From: Steroidobacteraceae bacterium
GTDB lineage: Bacteria; Pseudomonadota; Gammaproteobacteria; Steroidobacterales; Steroidobacteraceae
Assembly (NCBI GenBank): GCA_019187185.1
Contig: JABAQU010000002.1
Location: 186,001 to 250,000 of the forward strand
Direction of reading: 5' to 3'
Length of the DNA: 64,000 bases
Positions 57,128-64,000 of this stretch are shown in pieces. A program made the position numbers and the translations under genes. The stretch's first letter is position 1. Every line of letters starts with the position of its first letter. The notes below the pieces were generated by a model. It did not search any database, had not been told where the DNA came from, and saw only the letters and a list, made by a program, of their open reading frames with translations.

Positions 57128-59170
57128 TTACTGTTGCGTCGAGTCGTACGATTGACCGTCGTCGATCGGCTGCGCTTGCTGGCTCCTGTCATGCGGCACG
57201 CCGACGCTGACCGCGCCGGTGCAGGTTTCACCTTTACCGTCATCGCCAGTGAATGCAATGCGATAAACACGACCGTTGGCCGTGCCCGACCGCTCCGATC
57301 GGATTTGCGCCTGCGACGTCCCCACACCGAATCCATCTGGCGCCGTGTCGCCGTCACCGAGGCCGTTGACCGGCTCGTCCTGCGTGATGGCGGAAATGCG
57401 CAATGTGACATGATCACCATCCGGATCCGTCACACCTGCTATTTCGATGACCTTCAGTTTGTGATTCGGTGGCCACAAGAGCGGCGGGTCCGCAGCGGCG
57501 TTGGTGCAAACAGGGGGCGCATTGGTTATGGTGCCCGGCTCAAAGGGTGCCACGACCGACAGGTAGCCCTCGACTTCGCCGAACGAGCAGTTGTTCAATT
57601 CGTTCAGCTCGACGACGCTCTGCGGCGCATCGGCGCACGCCGCGAGATAGTAAGTGCCCGCGGCGAGCCCATCGGGCAATCGAACGTGTACGGCGGGACT
57701 CATGTCTTCCGCATGTGGCTCGAGGGCGGGAATTGCCCGCTCGCCGAGTACGGCGGCGGTGCTGAGGTCCACCGGTGAAGTGTCCCCGAGAAAGTAGCGG
57801 GTGATCGAGGGTGGCGATGCGGCGATGTCACTGATGTTGACCGTCATGTCGTGAATTACGGCGTCGTTGCCGCCTTGCGAGCGAAGCACCGGCGGCGCAA
57901 AGAAGGGAATCGCGAGGTCGGGTCCGGCGGTCCATTCGACTTCGGCAACACCGGCCTCGACGTGAAAATCGCCCGGGACGCTGACGGCAATGCGATCGCG
58001 CCCCACCACCGTTCCGACGTAGCTGAATACGGCCTTGCCATTGCTGCCAGTACGCAGGGACGCGGCCCGCGACTCGTTCGGGCCCTCGATGATTTCGAAA
58101 TCCACCGGGTAGTCGTTGAGAGGGCTGCCGTCGCCCAGATTGATGGCATCCGCGGTCAGCGAGTACCGCGTTCCGATCTGCAGCGATGCCGTGTCGGGCG
58201 CAAACGTCACTTTGGGTTCGAATGGCACCGGGGTATCCGGGGTCGAGGTGATCAGGTTCTGTGCGTTCAAGGTGACGAGATCGCTCACCTCACGTCGACG
58301 CTGCTCCGGACGTGACGCGGCAATCGTGTTCAGGAGCTGCGCAAGGCGCGTCTTGGCCAGCGTGCCGTCGCGTGCATCGAGAGCCGCTCGAGCCTGCGCC
58401 AGCTCACTTGCCAAGGTTTGCGCAAGCGCGGCGTCCGATATCCAGCCGAGCGCGATGGCCCGCTGGAGGTTGTCTCGCAGCAAATCCCACTGTTCGTACG
58501 AGCCGGGGAAGACGGCAGAAGGGCCTAGCGTGAAGACGTGATCGGGCAGCTGATCTGCGATTTCCCTGGCTCGCTTTTCCTCCTCCCCGGTTATACCGTC
58601 AGGCGATGTCGATACGTAGATCCAGTCCGGAACCAAGGTCATTTCACGAATGATGGGCGTCGTGAAACTCGTGAGCACAAAGCCGGAACGGCTCTGCCCG
58701 GGCGGAAATGCATCGGGAAGCCGCCCCACCTGCGCCGGTGTGCCAGGAATGAATGCAGCGAAGCCGCGTGCACCGATAGCTGCGTACCAATTTGTTGGCG
58801 CGTCCAAGCCGACCGGAACCATGGTCGCCGCATCGGGGGGCAGCATCTGCAACATACGGCGAAATGTCAGATTGCGACTCCCGAACTCGACGATCAGTGC
58901 GTCCGGATCGCCGTAAGCGGGACCGGAACTGCGAATATCGACCTGAATGCCATCGATGCTTCCGGTGTTTGCTGCAGGATTGTTCAAGGTGTACGAGTAT
59001 TGATAAGTACCCGCCGCGTCGGACCAAGTGACCACGGCATCGACGGTGACGTTTCTCAACACCGGTATGGGAAGCGCGCCGTCCAGTTGGGCCCACGCGG
59101 CGCCACTCGCAAGCACAAGAATCATGCCGATCGAAGATAGTCGCGCGGCACGCGGGCTCCATCTTGTCAT
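57128..59170 (-). CDS. Large exported protein with FIMAH-like and CARDB-like regions
   Basis: This 680-residue secreted or surface protein has a signal sequence (SSIGMILVLASGAAWAQ). Several parts are visible: a beta-rich N-terminal domain (about 20-200); a helical FIMAH-like region (about 230-310; LARARAALDARDG-type ARAALDARDGTLAKTRLAQLLNTI); a beta-sandwich (about 320-410); a CARDB-like domain (VRLPDGLAAGTYYLAACAD, SVVELNELNNC); and a C-terminal Ig-like segment (LLWPPNHKLKVIEIAGVTDPDGD). These modules are typical of secreted bacterial hydrolases and adhesins, but no catalytic domain is seen. The ATG at 59170 has GGAG upstream. It follows the LAS-type gene, 16 bp away. Confidence 0.7.
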   Translation of the reverse strand: MTRWSPRAARLSSIGMILVLASGAAWAQLDGALPIPVLRNVTVDAVVTWSDAAGTYQYSYTLNNPAANTGSIDGIQVDIRSSGPAYGDPDALIVEFGSRNLTFRRMLQMLPPDAATMVPVGLDAPTNWYAAIGARGFAAFIPGTPAQVGRLPDAFPPGQSRSGFVLTSFTTPIIREMTLVPDWIYVSTSPDGITGEEEKRAREIADQLPDHVFTLGPSAVFPGSYEQWDLLRDNLQRAIALGWISDAALAQTLASELAQARAALDARDGTLAKTRLAQLLNTIAASRPEQRRREVSDLVTLNAQNLITSTPDTPVPFEPKVTFAPDTASLQIGTRYSLTADAINLGDGSPLNDYPVDFEIIEGPNESRAASLRTGSNGKAVFSYVGTVVGRDRIAVSVPGDFHVEAGVAEVEWTAGPDLAIPFFAPPVLRSQGGNDAVIHDMTVNISDIAASPPSITRYFLGDTSPVDLSTAAVLGERAIPALEPHAEDMSPAVHVRLPDGLAAGTYYLAACADAPQSVVELNELNNCSFGEVEGYLSVVAPFEPGTITNAPPVCTNAAADPPLLWPPNHKLKVIEIAGVTDPDGDHVTLRISAITQDEPVNGLGDGDTAPDGFGVGTSQAQIRSERSGTANGRVYRIAFTGDDGKGETCTGAVSVGVPHDRSQQAQPIDDGQSYDSTQQ

Positions 59171-59186
59171 CTCGCACTCCATCTCG

Positions 59187-60149
59187 TCAGAAGTCGATGT
59201 GCTTGAGGCCGTCTTCTTCACAATACAGGTAAGGCCGCGTGCCGCCAGCGGCTGCTAGCAGAACTGATTTTGCGAGTGCTCTGTCGTCGAGGCACTTCGC
59301 AAATGTCCCGCCAATATTTTGTCGATTGATATCCGCATCCAAGCCTTCTCTGTGTGTTTGGTGCGGTTTCTGCCAGTTGGAGTGGATGTCAAAGAGCCCG
59401 CCTGCCGGGAGGCTCAGATCGTTGACGCTGAGCATGCTGCCGGTAGCGTCGCGATAGTACCCCGCAATTTCAAGCAACTTTCGAACCGTTCCGGGCGTGC
59501 CATTCGTGCCGTCAGGGTGTTCTGCGGTTCCGCCCCGGACGACCTGATAGTCCGTGCCAGAAGCCGGTAACGATTCCAGTCCCGGAATGCCTACGTCGAT
59601 GACAGCGTAGGTGAGCAGCGTTCTCCCGGCGGGATCAAGAAAGCAGAAGAACTGGCCGGCCGGAGCGGTAATCGTCGACACGACAGCGAGGCGGCCCGAT
59701 ACCTGCGGCGCTGGATGCCGGAGTACGGCTTGCGCAAGCGGCGGAACTTCCTGAGTATTGCCGGCGACGCGGAGAGGACTGCCGTCCGCATCACGTGGAT
59801 ACAGCACGCCGCCGCCGGGGTTGCGCTCATCTGCGAGCACGAGTGGCCGAATGCCGACGTGCTCGAAATGTCCGCCGTTATTCGCTGGATCGGACTCAGG
59901 CGGCGTCAGTCCGACTACCTTGTAGGTAAACGCACAGTTGGCGAAGCCACCTGTAAAAATGCTGTAGCAACCCAACACGACGGTAATGGGACTGTACTGC
60001 GCAGGTTTCGCCGGTGAGGGGCGTGCCGACGCGTAGGCAGAGTCCGCACACTCCGCGTATGTGATGGCGCTCGTCCATGGGGCGCACACACTCAGTGCGA
60101 TTCCAACCTTGATCGCCTTCCCCACGATGTGCACTGCTCCAGCTTCCAT
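59187..60149 (-). CDS. Exported protein with LAS-type (M15/M74) metallopeptidase signature
   Basis: This 320-residue protein has a signal-like N-terminus (IVGKAIKVGIALSVCAPWTSA). The C-terminal part has HSNWQKPHQTHREGLDADIN, whose HxxGxDxD pattern matches the first metal site of LAS peptidases such as MepA and VanX. The last residues GLKHIDF supply the second H-x-D pair. It would be a zinc peptidase, possibly acting on peptidoglycan. The N-terminal half (FTYKVVGLTPPESD, HFEHVGIRPLVLADERN) is of unknown fold. Being next to the modular exported protein suggests a secreted pair. Confidence 0.5.
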   Translation of the reverse strand: MEAGAVHIVGKAIKVGIALSVCAPWTSAITYAECADSAYASARPSPAKPAQYSPITVVLGCYSIFTGGFANCAFTYKVVGLTPPESDPANNGGHFEHVGIRPLVLADERNPGGGVLYPRDADGSPLRVAGNTQEVPPLAQAVLRHPAPQVSGRLAVVSTITAPAGQFFCFLDPAGRTLLTYAVIDVGIPGLESLPASGTDYQVVRGGTAEHPDGTNGTPGTVRKLLEIAGYYRDATGSMLSVNDLSLPAGGLFDIHSNWQKPHQTHREGLDADINRQNIGGTFAKCLDDRALAKSVLLAAAGGTRPYLYCEEDGLKHIDF

Positions 60150-60246: not shown

Positions 60247-60555
60247 TCCGATCTGTTGCGAAGCGGTGTCGCGCGCGAACGTCATTTTTGGTTCGAAAGG
60301 CACCGGGGTATCCGGCATCGAAGTGATCAGGTTCTGCGCGTTCAAGGTGACGAGATCACTCACTTCACCGCACCGCTGCTCCGGGCGGGACGCGGCTATC
60401 GTTTTCAGGAGCTGCGTAAGGCGCGATTTGCCCAGCGTGCCGTCGCGCGCGTAGAGAGCTGCCCGCGCCTGCGCCAGCTCGGTGGTCAGCGCTTGCGCGA
60501 GCGAAGCGTCCGAAATCCAGCCGAGCGTGAAGACGTGATCGGGCAGCTGAACTGA
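60247..60555 (-). pseudogene. Decayed partial duplicate of the FIMAH-like region of 57128-59170
   Basis: The minus strand reads SDLVTLNAQNLITSMPDTPV and FEPKMTFARDTASQQIG, almost the same as the intact gene at about 58180-58310. The similarity continues to about 58540, but with a deletion between CCAGCCGAGCG and GTGAAGACGTGATCGGGCAG. There is no start or complete frame. This is a broken copy left by an internal duplication in the island. Confidence 0.75.
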
Positions 60556-60665: not shown

Positions 60666-61364
60666 CTACGTCACAGAGCCGACGGCCTTGTCACCGACCA
60701 TCTCGCACACAGTGCGCGCCATGCCCGCGAGCCTTGAGAGTGCCTTCGCGTTCATCTTGCCGCCGAGCTTCTTCGAGTCGAGCCACGCGGCAGCCGCTAC
60801 CGACAACAGCGTCGAGCCTTTCGGTGCCTGCTGTGCGGCATCAGGAGCACGCGGAGCGATCACTGTCCGGCGTATCGGCTCGCCGTCGATACCTCGAAGT
60901 TCTGCAAGGCACGCTTCGATCCTGACTTCGAGCAAGCGACGAGCGAGGATGCGCTGCGCGGAGTCAGAAAGTCCGGGCGACATCCTTCGAGCGTCGTCGA
61001 GTGTGCCTCGAAGGTCGTTATCTGCGAGTGCTTCCTGCAGCTCGTCGATCTTCTCAAGGAGCACATGCCGCGCGGTGTCGTTCCAGTGAGCGCCGTTGAT
61101 CTTCCACCCGCCGAGCGCAAGCCGCTCTTCGACTTCGTGAAGCTCGGTATCCAAAACCTGCGCGACAAGTGCCTCGATCTGTCGACTGTCCATGAAGCGA
61201 GCGTCTCTCCTCAGCTTGTGAAACAGGTTAGCGACTCTCGCTTCCGTCCTGTCTGCGGTTCGCAAGCTGCGGACGATCTCGCAGCGTTTGACGTAGCGCC
61301 GAAGGCCGCGCGGAACGGCGACCCTCGAACGGTAGTTCCGTCGAGAGCATTTCTGTACCGGCAC
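60666..61364 (-). pseudogene. Truncated tyrosine integrase (N-terminal part only)
   Basis: The 232 residues match the N-terminal region of DUF6538-type tyrosine recombinases: SRVAVPRGLRRYVKRCEIVR followed by SLRTADRTEARVANLFHKL, and the core-binding end MARTVCEMVGDKAVGSVT. Normally this leads into the catalytic domain, which carries R-H-x-x-R-Y. That catalytic domain is missing, and the frame stops at 60666. The position 75 bp from the tRNA-Met 3' end, reading away from it, is standard for an island integrase. It may still be translated, but would be inactive. Confidence 0.75.
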
Positions 61365-61438
61365 GCTGGACCCGCCTCTGTACCCGCTCGCCCGGCGAAA
61401 CGATTTCGCCTTAATTTACCGATACTTGCGAGGGGTAC

Positions 61439-61512
61439 TGGAAAGGGAGGGACTCGAACCCTCGACCCCGGCATTATGAGTGCCGTGCTCTAACCAGCTG
61501 AGCTACCTTTCC
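61439..61512 (-). tRNA. tRNA-Met (CAT), elongator type
   Basis: A 74-nt cloverleaf folds perfectly: acceptor GGAAAGG/CCTTTCC, D-arm GCTC-AGCTGGTTA-GAGC, anticodon arm CGGCA-CTCATAA-TGCCG with anticodon CAT, T-arm GAGGG-TTCGAGT-CCCTC and discriminator A. The body (GTAGCTCAGCTGGTTAGAGC, GGGGTC) matches elongator tRNA-Met rather than initiator. An isoleucine reading by lysidine cannot be ruled out. CCA is not encoded in this copy. Confidence 0.9.
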
Positions 61513-61561
61513 ATGGGGGCGCGGGATTGTCCGGGCGCGCCTCCCGGGTGTCAAGGCAGCG

Positions 61562-62440
61562 CTACCCGAGCGCCCGCGTCAGCAGCGCGAGCAGCCGCTC
61601 CCATGCTTTTTCGGCCTGGTCGTGGTCGTACACGCGCGCGTCCGGCGGGCACCAGCCGTGCTTCGTGCCGGCGTAGACCTCGATCTCCGCGGGCAGGCCC
61701 GCATCGGCGAAGGCCTTGCGCAGCACGTCCTTCGCCTCCGGCTGGCGCTGGTCGTCGTTCTCGGCGATCGCGATCAGGAACTGTGCCTTCATCTTCGGCA
61801 CGAGCAGGTGCGGGCTGTCGGGCTTGTCGGTCACGAGTCCGCCACCGTGAAACGACGCGCCCGCGCCGATGCGATCGGGCATCGCGGCCGCGGTGCGCAT
61901 CACGAGCGGGCCGCCCATGCAGTAGCCGGTCGTGCCCATCCTGCGATGCTTGTCCACGGCGCCCTGCGCATCGAGCCAGTCCACGAACGCGCGCGCGTCG
62001 ACCGCGGCGGTCGTCGCGGACAGCGAGCCCGACAGCGCCATCAGCGCCGCGCGCGTCGGCGGATCATTGAAGTCGGGATTCGGGGGCGATGTGGGTGCGT
62101 GCTGCGTACGATAGAACGGGTTGACGACCAGGACCGCATAGCCCGATCCGGCGAGCCGCCGGCCCATCTGCCTGAACGCGGGGCGCAGGCCGAAGATGTC
62201 GGGCCACACGAGGACTCCCGGATGCGTGCCCTTTGCCGGGTGCACGAAGTACGCGTCCGCCGTGCCGTCGGGTGTCTTCACCTCGACTTCGGACTCCGTC
62301 AGCCCGGCGGCCGCAGCCAGCGGCGGCAATACCGAGATCATGCCGGCCCCGAGCGTCAATGCGCTGAAGTCTCGCCGCGACAGCTCCTTCGACCTGAGCT
62401 GATACGCGACCATGTCGTCGAACGCGTCGTTGTCGCACAT
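61562..62440 (-). CDS. Dienelactone hydrolase family protein, Tat-exported
   Basis: This 292-residue alpha/beta hydrolase begins with a Tat signal after a 20-residue extension (KELSRRDFSALTLGAG then MISVLPPLAAAAG). The hydrolase domain has PGVLVWPDIFGLRPAFRQMG, the nucleophile Cys in GTTGYCMGGPL, and acid and His at IAENDDQRQ and YAGTKHGWC. This is the Cys-Asp-His pattern of dienelactone hydrolases. The substrate is unknown; export argues against a role in aromatic ring breakdown. I chose the ATG at 62440, with AGGGG upstream. It follows the tRNA on the same strand. Confidence 0.82.
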   Translation of the reverse strand: MCDNDAFDDMVAYQLRSKELSRRDFSALTLGAGMISVLPPLAAAAGLTESEVEVKTPDGTADAYFVHPAKGTHPGVLVWPDIFGLRPAFRQMGRRLAGSGYAVLVVNPFYRTQHAPTSPPNPDFNDPPTRAALMALSGSLSATTAAVDARAFVDWLDAQGAVDKHRRMGTTGYCMGGPLVMRTAAAMPDRIGAGASFHGGGLVTDKPDSPHLLVPKMKAQFLIAIAENDDQRQPEAKDVLRKAFADAGLPAEIEVYAGTKHGWCPPDARVYDHDQAEKAWERLLALLTRALG

Positions 62441-62513
62441 GGCACCCCTCCACCCATCGATCGGGAAGCCGGCATGTTGCGCCGGCGGTCGACGCTGCCG
62501 CAAGCCGCGCGAG

Positions 62514-64000
62514 TCACGTGCGCACGATCACCGCGGTGTCGATCAGCAGACCCTCGAGGCTGTACCAGCGAACCTGGTCGCCGTCGACGATCACGTGCAT
62601 CGCGAGGCGCTCCCCGTAGGCCCAGTTGTCCCACTGCCGGATCCAGCGGTTGCCCTCGATGCGCCAGACCCCCGTGTCGCGCTCCTCGTCGTGATAGCCC
62701 ACGCGTCCCGCGAGCGTGCCGTCGCGGCGCACTTCGAGCGTGCAGGGCTCGCCCCAGACGGTGTTATAGAGGAGTGACTTGCCGCCGAGCGCGCGTCGCA
62801 ACGCCGTGCCGCGCAGGGGCGGCGCTGCCTCGTCCTCGAGCCGGCGCGAACCGAGCGCAGGGTCACGCGTGAAGAGACGCGCGAGCCGGTGCACGCCTTC
62901 GCGGATCCGCTCCTTCGGCAGGCCCGTGACGCCCATCGCGAGGAGCTGCGGATCGCCCTCGCCGCCCGGCTCGATCAGCACACCCTGCGCCGCGGCCGCG
63001 CGCGCCAGCGCGAGCGCGTTCATCCCGGCCGGGCCGCGCACCCAGTGCGCGCTCGAGCGCGCGTAGACGCCGATCTGCACGAACTTGTGCAGGTAGTGGT
63101 TCAGCGCGTCGCGCAGTTCGGTGCGCCGGGCGAGCAGGATCGCGCCGCTGCGCTTGAGCGCAGCACCATAGTGGCCGAGCGCGAGGAAATGCGACCACGC
63201 GCGCTGCAGGCCGGGTGCAAACCCGGCGCCGATCACGCGCCGCGCGGCACGGACCCGCTCGATGACCGTCGCGTCCGCCTGGATGAACGCCGGCGGCGCG
63301 CCCATCGCCGCGGCCGGCGCCAGCGAGCCGACGAACAGCACCCGGCCCGCGCCATCGATCGATCGCAGCGACGGCAGGTCGCCTGCGGTCTCGCGCAATT
63401 CGATCGGCGGCGTACTCTCGACGATCCACGCATCGGCCGCCTCTGCCGCGGCGAGCCACGCGCGAGCGCGTGCCGCGCTCATCACGTTGCCCTGCTTGAC
63501 GCGCCGCGCGCCGAGCACGATCACGCTGCGCGCCGGCAGCGTCTCCGGGACGACGGGACCTTGCCGGTCGCGCTCGAGCATGAGAGTAGGTGCGCTGCGC
63601 GCGGCGAGCCGCCGGCGCGTGTCGCCATCACCCTCGTCGTCCATCACGAGCGCCGTGCTGCGTTCGAGCAGCGCCTCGGTCGCCAGATAGAGGGCCTGCC
63701 GGTGCGACGGCACGGCCAGCACCTCGTCCGGCCCCGCCTCGATATCCCAGCCGGGCAGCGCCTTGGTACGCAATTCATCGAGCAGCGCCGGGTCGTCGCT
63801 TTCGCCTCCGACCTGCGCGTGACGCATCAGTTCCTGCTTGCCGAACGCATATCGCAAGGCTTCGCGCCATTCGCCGAGCGGCAGCAGGGACGGGTCGACG
63901 CAACCGTCGAGGAAGGGATACGGATACTGGTGCCAGTTGGGCGGCCGGCGAAACTCGTCGTAGTCCGTGTCGCTGGCCGGATCCCGGAGGCGGTGCGGAC
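62514..64000 (-). CDS. MocR-type regulator with degenerate aminotransferase domain and C-terminal extension, partial
   Basis: The frame stays open to the window edge, so the N-terminal winged helix is cut off. The upstream part reads YPYPFLDGCVDPSLLPLGEW, the usual MocR linker and start of the aminotransferase-like domain. The domain continues to about 62870 (AHWVRGPAGMNALALARAAA, MGVTGLPKERIREGVHRLAR). At the PLP lysine site, MocR proteins read GTFSK-x-LAPG, but this one reads FVGSLAPAAAMG with the lysine stretch missing. A final domain of about 110 residues (LYNTVWGEPCTLEVRRDGTL, GYHDEERDTGVWRIEGNRWI, QVRWYSLEGLLIDTAVI) resembles DUF995-like folds. The role and ligand are unknown. Confidence 0.72.
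   Translation of the reverse strand, partial: PHRLRDPASDTDYDEFRRPPNWHQYPYPFLDGCVDPSLLPLGEWREALRYAFGKQELMRHAQVGGESDDPALLDELRTKALPGWDIEAGPDEVLAVPSHRQALYLATEALLERSTALVMDDEGDGDTRRRLAARSAPTLMLERDRQGPVVPETLPARSVIVLGARRVKQGNVMSAARARAWLAAAEAADAWIVESTPPIELRETAGDLPSLRSIDGAGRVLFVGSLAPAAAMGAPPAFIQADATVIERVRAARRVIGAGFAPGLQRAWSHFLALGHYGAALKRSGAILLARRTELRDALNHYLHKFVQIGVYARSSAHWVRGPAGMNALALARAAAAQGVLIEPGGEGDPQLLAMGVTGLPKERIREGVHRLARLFTRDPALGSRRLEDEAAPPLRGTALRRALGGKSLLYNTVWGEPCTLEVRRDGTLAGRVGYHDEERDTGVWRIEGNRWIRQWDNWAYGERLAMHVIVDGDQVRWYSLEGLLIDTAVIVRT

Follow-up and report, generated by a model that had tools for sequence, protein, structure and literature searches.

A MocR-derived regulator with a predicted dismantled PLP site and a Trp-rich C-terminal domain beside a shared CN-hydrolase operon

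MocR regulators are the textbook case of an enzyme fold that came to serve as a sensor by way of its cofactor. The gene at the end of the window, that is, the whole stretch of 64,000 nucleotides analyzed here, raises the question of how such a regulator may work once the residues that hold the cofactor have disappeared. The initial annotation described it as a MocR-type regulator that had lost its PLP lysine and gained a C-terminal domain, and pointed to a gene extending beyond the window.

The regulator gene and its former PLP site

According to the ORF listing, a minus-strand reading frame fills positions 62514-64000 and continues past the window end. The full gene was obtained from the adjoining stretch of the same assembly (L009:5515-7326, minus strand, equal to G000:C1:248514-250325) and encodes 603 amino acids in an unbroken frame; the window gene is real and intact. 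Since the start codon of the relative L011 is the equivalent of Met13 of the window protein, the length may be 591 rather than 603 residues. The following features, all on the minus strand, are distinguished:

62514-64000, minus: MocR-derived regulator gene, residues 110-603 and stop codon (ORF, completed outside the window)
Beyond the window end, up to G000:C1:250325, minus: first 109 residues, winged helix and linker (GntR domain match)
62865-63998, minus: fold-type-I aminotransferase-like (AT) domain, residues ~110-487, PLP site predicted to be dismantled (NCBIfam PdxR/MocR, PDB PdxR/GabR, Foldseek on a low-confidence model)
63402-63419, minus: former PLP-ring motif EDDYDS, now ESTPPI, residues 303-308 (homologue alignment)
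63291-63329, minus: former Schiff-base loop GSLAPAAAMGAPP, residues 333-345 (gap-free GabR alignment, homologue alignment)
62517-62819, minus: C-terminal Trp-rich domain, residues 503-603, predicted all-beta (alignment, AlphaFold)

The winged helix is of the GntR type that characterizes the MocR/GabR subfamily (PF00392, residues 33-94, E 3.6e-11 in Pfam). Homology of the large domain to fold-type-I aminotransferases, as in this subfamily, is indicated by NCBIfam, with matches to PdxR (E 2e-49) and MocR (E 4e-38), by matches to PDB PdxR 7pq9 and GabR 4n0b, and by Foldseek, in which PdxR, LysN and GabR rank first. The NCBIfam equivalog scores remain under the curated cut-offs (PdxR 168.7 of 320, MocR 131.4 of 650, GabR 64 of 600 bits), and the structure models are of low confidence because they were built from the window ORF and two relatives. 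The window protein is a MocR by descent.

The roles of the GabR residues at the PLP-ring motif are described in PMC6677901, where Asp279, which contacts the pyridine nitrogen, and Lys312 are conserved in all MocR clusters distinguished there. In pairwise alignment, the Schiff-base loop of GabR, GTFSKSLLPGLRISY, corresponds without a gap to GSLAPAAAMGAPPAF in the window protein, placing P337 (codon at 63315-63317) at the position of K312. Within EDDYDSE of GabR, now ESTPPIE, D279 is replaced by S304 and Y281 by P306, while P344 stands at the phosphate Arg, R319, and the PSHQ motif reads GARR in the homologue alignment. The Arg of FRLGF, which in GabR is R430 and contacts the carboxylate, has become A463. 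The absence of the PLP lysine is thus confirmed; the segment is substituted, however, and not shortened as first proposed, and the statement that the remainder aligns understates a decay that extends to D279, Y281, R319, the R430 position and PSHQ, with no aminotransferase domain found in a Pfam search of the full protein. No conserved lysine takes the place of the lost one: the alignment of homologues contains no lysine column specific to the PLP-less group, which rules out a compensating lysine elsewhere.

The same PLP-site losses occur in six relatives, L011-L016, with P, A or Q at the lysine, Cys at the D279 position and P or A at the R319 position, and the seven PLP-less proteins come from several genera. 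Whole-gene dN/dS amounts to 0.31 in the comparison with the nearest relative and to 0.12-0.51 within the PLP-less clade as a whole, with purifying selection on all three domains. Common to six relatives in a clade with such ratios, the losses are not a product of chance. The loss of many conserved aminotransferase motif residues could also be read as the decay of a pseudogene, but the intact frame and dN/dS values well below 1 rule this out, and the recurrence of the losses in seven proteins of several genera, together with a conserved operator and operon, leaves it a negligible probability. Judged from its aligned residues, the predicted PLP site is dismantled and the window protein would be free of PLP; with the PLP-binding residues replaced, it should not be classed among the PLP-dependent MocRs.

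The C-terminal domain and the order of events

The further Trp/Arg-rich domain is present, covering about 100 residues where about 110 had been estimated. Its hallmark in the alignment is D.GRWWVEGDRW.RQW..WAYGE, and AlphaFold models eight strands at low confidence (pLDDT 55). Comparison with Pfam, NCBIfam and PDB profiles assigns it to no family, the best Pfam match, DUF7713 (E 0.08-0.11), falling under its gathering score. A FABP/lipocalin-like fold was considered and not used, as Foldseek returned E 0.09 or worse on the pLDDT-55 model.

The domain also occurs in small, probably secreted proteins of other Pseudomonadota (L097-L102; ORFs of 137-171 codons), with which the fused copies have in common the core D.GRWWV.GD.LC.KW..W..G. 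Unlike the fused domain, these proteins stand alone, begin with signal-peptide-like N-termini and contain a Cys pair (LCQKW...CF) that is missing in most fused copies; they have no Pfam or NCBIfam name, and the rhizobial-plasmid copies are annotated as 'hypothetical protein' or not at all. This pattern is consistent with a secreted disulfide module that moved to the cytoplasm. Elsewhere (L095/L122 and L103/L121), the Trp-rich domain is found once with an SH3 domain and once with a caspase domain.

The search for the same architecture, suggested at the outset, covered 200 genomes of the family and returned 15 loci with the three-part arrangement, plus shorter relatives devoid of the extra domain; after domain searches, the aligned fused set comprises 36 proteins, plus L016, which is interrupted by a contig end. 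The Schiff-base Lys is kept in 21 of the 36. The others have R (L017, L018, L021), N (L106, L116, L117, L123), H (L115), S (L111), or P, A or Q at this position, and all 16 unfused proteins aligned retain the Lys. When the loop columns are excluded from the tree, the presence or absence of Lys takes five changes, at least four of them forced by well-supported branches. Because the outgroups bear Lys, these changes are read as losses, so that fused proteins appear to have lost Lys on at least four to five occasions, whereas none of the 16 unfused ones has lost it.

With the Lys still present in 21 of the 36 fused relatives, the fusion preceded its loss, the domain was not gained to replace PLP, and its acquisition after the loss is ruled out. 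The proposal that the new domain replaces PLP chemistry therefore holds in part: the disappearance of the PLP site, purifying selection and the constraint shift described below speak for it, whereas the order and causality it implied do not stand.

Loss of the rest of the PLP site is confined to the P/A/Q clade, its R sisters sharing it in part. The N, H and S lineages (L106, L115, L116, L117, L123, L111) have lost the Schiff-base Lys and kept the other PLP residues, and may possibly bind PLP noncovalently. It is conceivable that the window protein likewise still holds PLP or another B6 vitamer in a noncovalent manner; this is plausible for the N/H/S relatives, with their D279- and R319-type residues, but very improbable for the window protein, which no longer has the Asp, the Tyr or the phosphate Arg either.

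The relative evolutionary rates of the domains distinguish the PLP-less clade further. On a fixed topology, the branch length of the C-domain relative to that of the AT domain is 0.47 (0.37-0.68) in this clade and 1.27 (0.97-1.56) in the main clade of 18 mostly Lys-bearing members: the C-terminal domain is the most conserved part of the former and the least conserved part of the latter, and the AT domain is the fastest-evolving domain of the PLP-less proteins. The C-terminal domain thus appears unusually constrained where the PLP site is dismantled, a correlation within one lineage. The shift is absent from the Lys-to-Asn clade (1.22, the single N clade that could be measured), and for this reason it is not claimed as a general outcome of Lys loss.

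These rates bear on where a ligand might be sensed. The AT domain itself could act as a noncovalent sensor, its emptied PLP cleft binding a metabolite of the operon while the C-domain stabilizes the protein or mediates contacts. Such a role would fit the purifying selection on the AT domain and its 115 positions invariant in all seven PLP-less proteins, including the clade-specific R193W, T272G and H274R. With the AT domain evolving fastest in this clade and the C-domain slowed, however, we regard it as rather unlikely, though the most serious of the alternatives, and give preference to a sensing role that rests more on the C-terminal domain.

The adjoining operon and its candidate operator

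Beside the regulator gene lie a gene set just outside the window and a hydrolase gene within it:

L009:7403-15000, just outside the window end: CN hydrolase, TonB-dependent receptor, TPR-sulfotransferase, serine hydrolase and MFS transporter set
61562-62503, minus: dienelactone-hydrolase-family gene (PF01738, E 1.7e-38)

The surroundings of 28 fused loci were examined, and 26 of these loci lie next to a common gene set of CN hydrolase, TonB-dependent receptor, TPR-sulfotransferase, beta-lactamase-family serine hydrolase and MFS transporter, with contig ends interrupting some of the sets. This holds for Lys-bearing and Lys-less loci alike; the exceptions are L111 and L113. At the four unfused loci examined, the CN hydrolase was not found. 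A description of the CN-hydrolase/TonB/sulfotransferase operon was likewise not found in the open-access literature, an absence that counts as weak evidence. In L041, a MAG contig labelled Brevundimonas, a Lys-bearing regulator occurs with the CN hydrolase, the TonB receptor, the sulfotransferase and the start of the serine hydrolase, a placement due either to horizontal transfer or to mis-binning.

A direct repeat, CTGGNNCCAT-N13-CTGGNNCTAT, is located upstream of the CN hydrolase and is common to Lys-bearing and Lys-less loci. Pairs of CTGGNNCNA across 36 loci are found 35 times at 23-bp spacing and at most 7 times at any other distance. The repeat is present in all 25 CN-hydrolase promoters with 13-16 of the 16 specified bases, and 1000 shuffles gave at most 12; because the motif was derived from the same promoter sequences, these shuffles and a genome scan serve as controls. 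The strict pattern has one match in the 3.55-Mb genome of the window, at C1:250304-250335, adjoining the starts of the regulator and the CN hydrolase. In 30 other genomes, well-formed matches lie nearly all at the shared operons, and those genomes lacking a fused regulator have at most one match, which is ill-formed. The locus thus has a candidate site of the direct-repeat kind typical of MocR/GabR operators, and the recognition-helix segment SRNTV/ARNTV is retained. Between the end of the repeat and the CN-hydrolase start lie 43-91 bp, and the repeat is often followed, after ~17-20 bp, by a TGTCAA- or TTACGGT-like element; this element could be a -10 region, which would put the repeat in activator geometry.

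In the regulator tree, the window protein groups with L012-L016 with full support. In the CN-hydrolase and TonB trees, the window operon groups with L019/L020, which belong to the same genus and have Lys-bearing regulators, and a single clade of PLP-less loci is rejected in the CN-hydrolase tree (AU p 0.005), where L014 forms a long branch. The simplest reading of these trees is that regulators were exchanged on a shared operator.

The dienelactone-hydrolase-family gene lies 10 bp downstream of the regulator gene and is probably cotranscribed with it. A homologue is found next to the L043 regulator and another closes the operon of L052, while the other loci have none; the gene is an uncertain member of the regulator system.

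Proposed mode of action and known MocR systems

With the PLP residues lost and the operon and DNA site the same as in relatives that retain these residues, the signal is probably sensed in another way, perhaps with the fused domain. We consider the window protein a regulator that descends from a MocR, most likely no longer depends on PLP and acts locally on the adjoining uptake/hydrolysis operon, a reading to which we give an even chance. The loss of PLP residues in seven proteins, the lack of a replacement Lys, selection, the operator, the operon and the contrasting domain ratios speak for it, while the restriction of the constraint shift to one lineage, its absence from the Lys-to-Asn clade and the presence of the C-terminal domain in PLP-competent relatives count against it. 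The AT domain would be kept as a dimerization and allosteric scaffold, and ligand sensing would rest more on the C-terminal domain; the regulator dimer would bind the 23-bp direct repeat beside the CN-hydrolase promoter and, if the presumed sign is right, activate it when the ligand is present. Members of the MocR/GabR subfamily bind PLP and, through an external aldimine, an amine or amino-acid effector; for the relatives that bear Lys, the amine of such an aldimine could come from the CN hydrolase.

Direct-repeat operators have been reported for GabR and TauR (PMC5320631). GabR, PdxR, TauR and EnuR combine a winged helix with a fold-type-I AT domain, as does the window protein, and locally control an adjoining catabolic operon, as is proposed here. 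Unlike them, the window protein lacks the PLP lysine and other PLP contacts and has an extra C-terminal domain, and a target made up of CN hydrolase, TonB receptor, TPR-sulfotransferase, serine hydrolase and MFS transporter was not found in the MocR literature examined. The nearest relatives on plasmids include a Rhizobium MocR from a taurine operon. The closest parallel within the architecture is given by Lys-bearing fused relatives (L019, L020, L022, L023, L041 and others), which have the same domains, operon and operator; in contrast to the window protein, they keep SLSK/SFSK and most other PLP residues, and their C-terminal domain is less conserved than the AT domain.

The laboratory mutant EnuR K302H, unable to hold PLP, represses constitutively (PMC8739950). 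A regulator of this kind would thus normally become blind on losing the Lys, and natural retention with a kept operator becomes noteworthy. By analogy, PLP loss might have locked the window protein as a ligand-blind constitutive activator or repressor, possibly acting with another regulator. This appears improbable: for a blind protein, neither the strong conservation of the C-terminal domain in the PLP-less clade nor its persistence at a new place, on operons that in related loci are served by Lys-bearing regulators, would be easy to explain. EnuR K302H is, moreover, a single engineered change that leaves the protein blind to its signal, whereas the window lineage displays a natural loss of the whole site, maintained by selection. 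A naturally Lys-less MocR was not found in the open-access literature, although this absence is again weak evidence.

A PLP-independent local regulator would also fit a broader scheme, which we put forward tentatively and with somewhat less confidence: in a family of MocRs fused to an undescribed Trp-rich beta domain, PLP may have become dispensable several times, and one lineage may have dismantled the whole site, moved sensing to the fused domain and, as a PLP-free regulator, taken over from PLP-type ones at an unchanged operon and operator. The PLP site was lost repeatedly in one architecture while operator and target operon remained mostly unchanged. Matched PLP-type and PLP-less regulators of one promoter consequently offer a direct test of what PLP contributes to MocR signaling, and could show whether a fused domain can take over sensing. 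The comparison also brings to light a widespread Trp-rich domain that has no name, and an operon of the CN-hydrolase/TonB/sulfotransferase type that is conserved but uncharacterized.

Other features lie near the regulator gene. A fragment with a DUF6538 (integrase-type N-terminal) domain at 60666-61513, beside a tRNA-Met gene at ~61438-61513, is the probable remnant of an integrated element. A 284-nt direct repeat of 84% identity is found at 58172-58455 and 60247-60530, one copy inside a large Ig-like/CARDB-type protein gene and the other, as a fragment, downstream of it on the plus strand; between the copies, the gene at 59187-60149 weakly matches murein endopeptidase M74.
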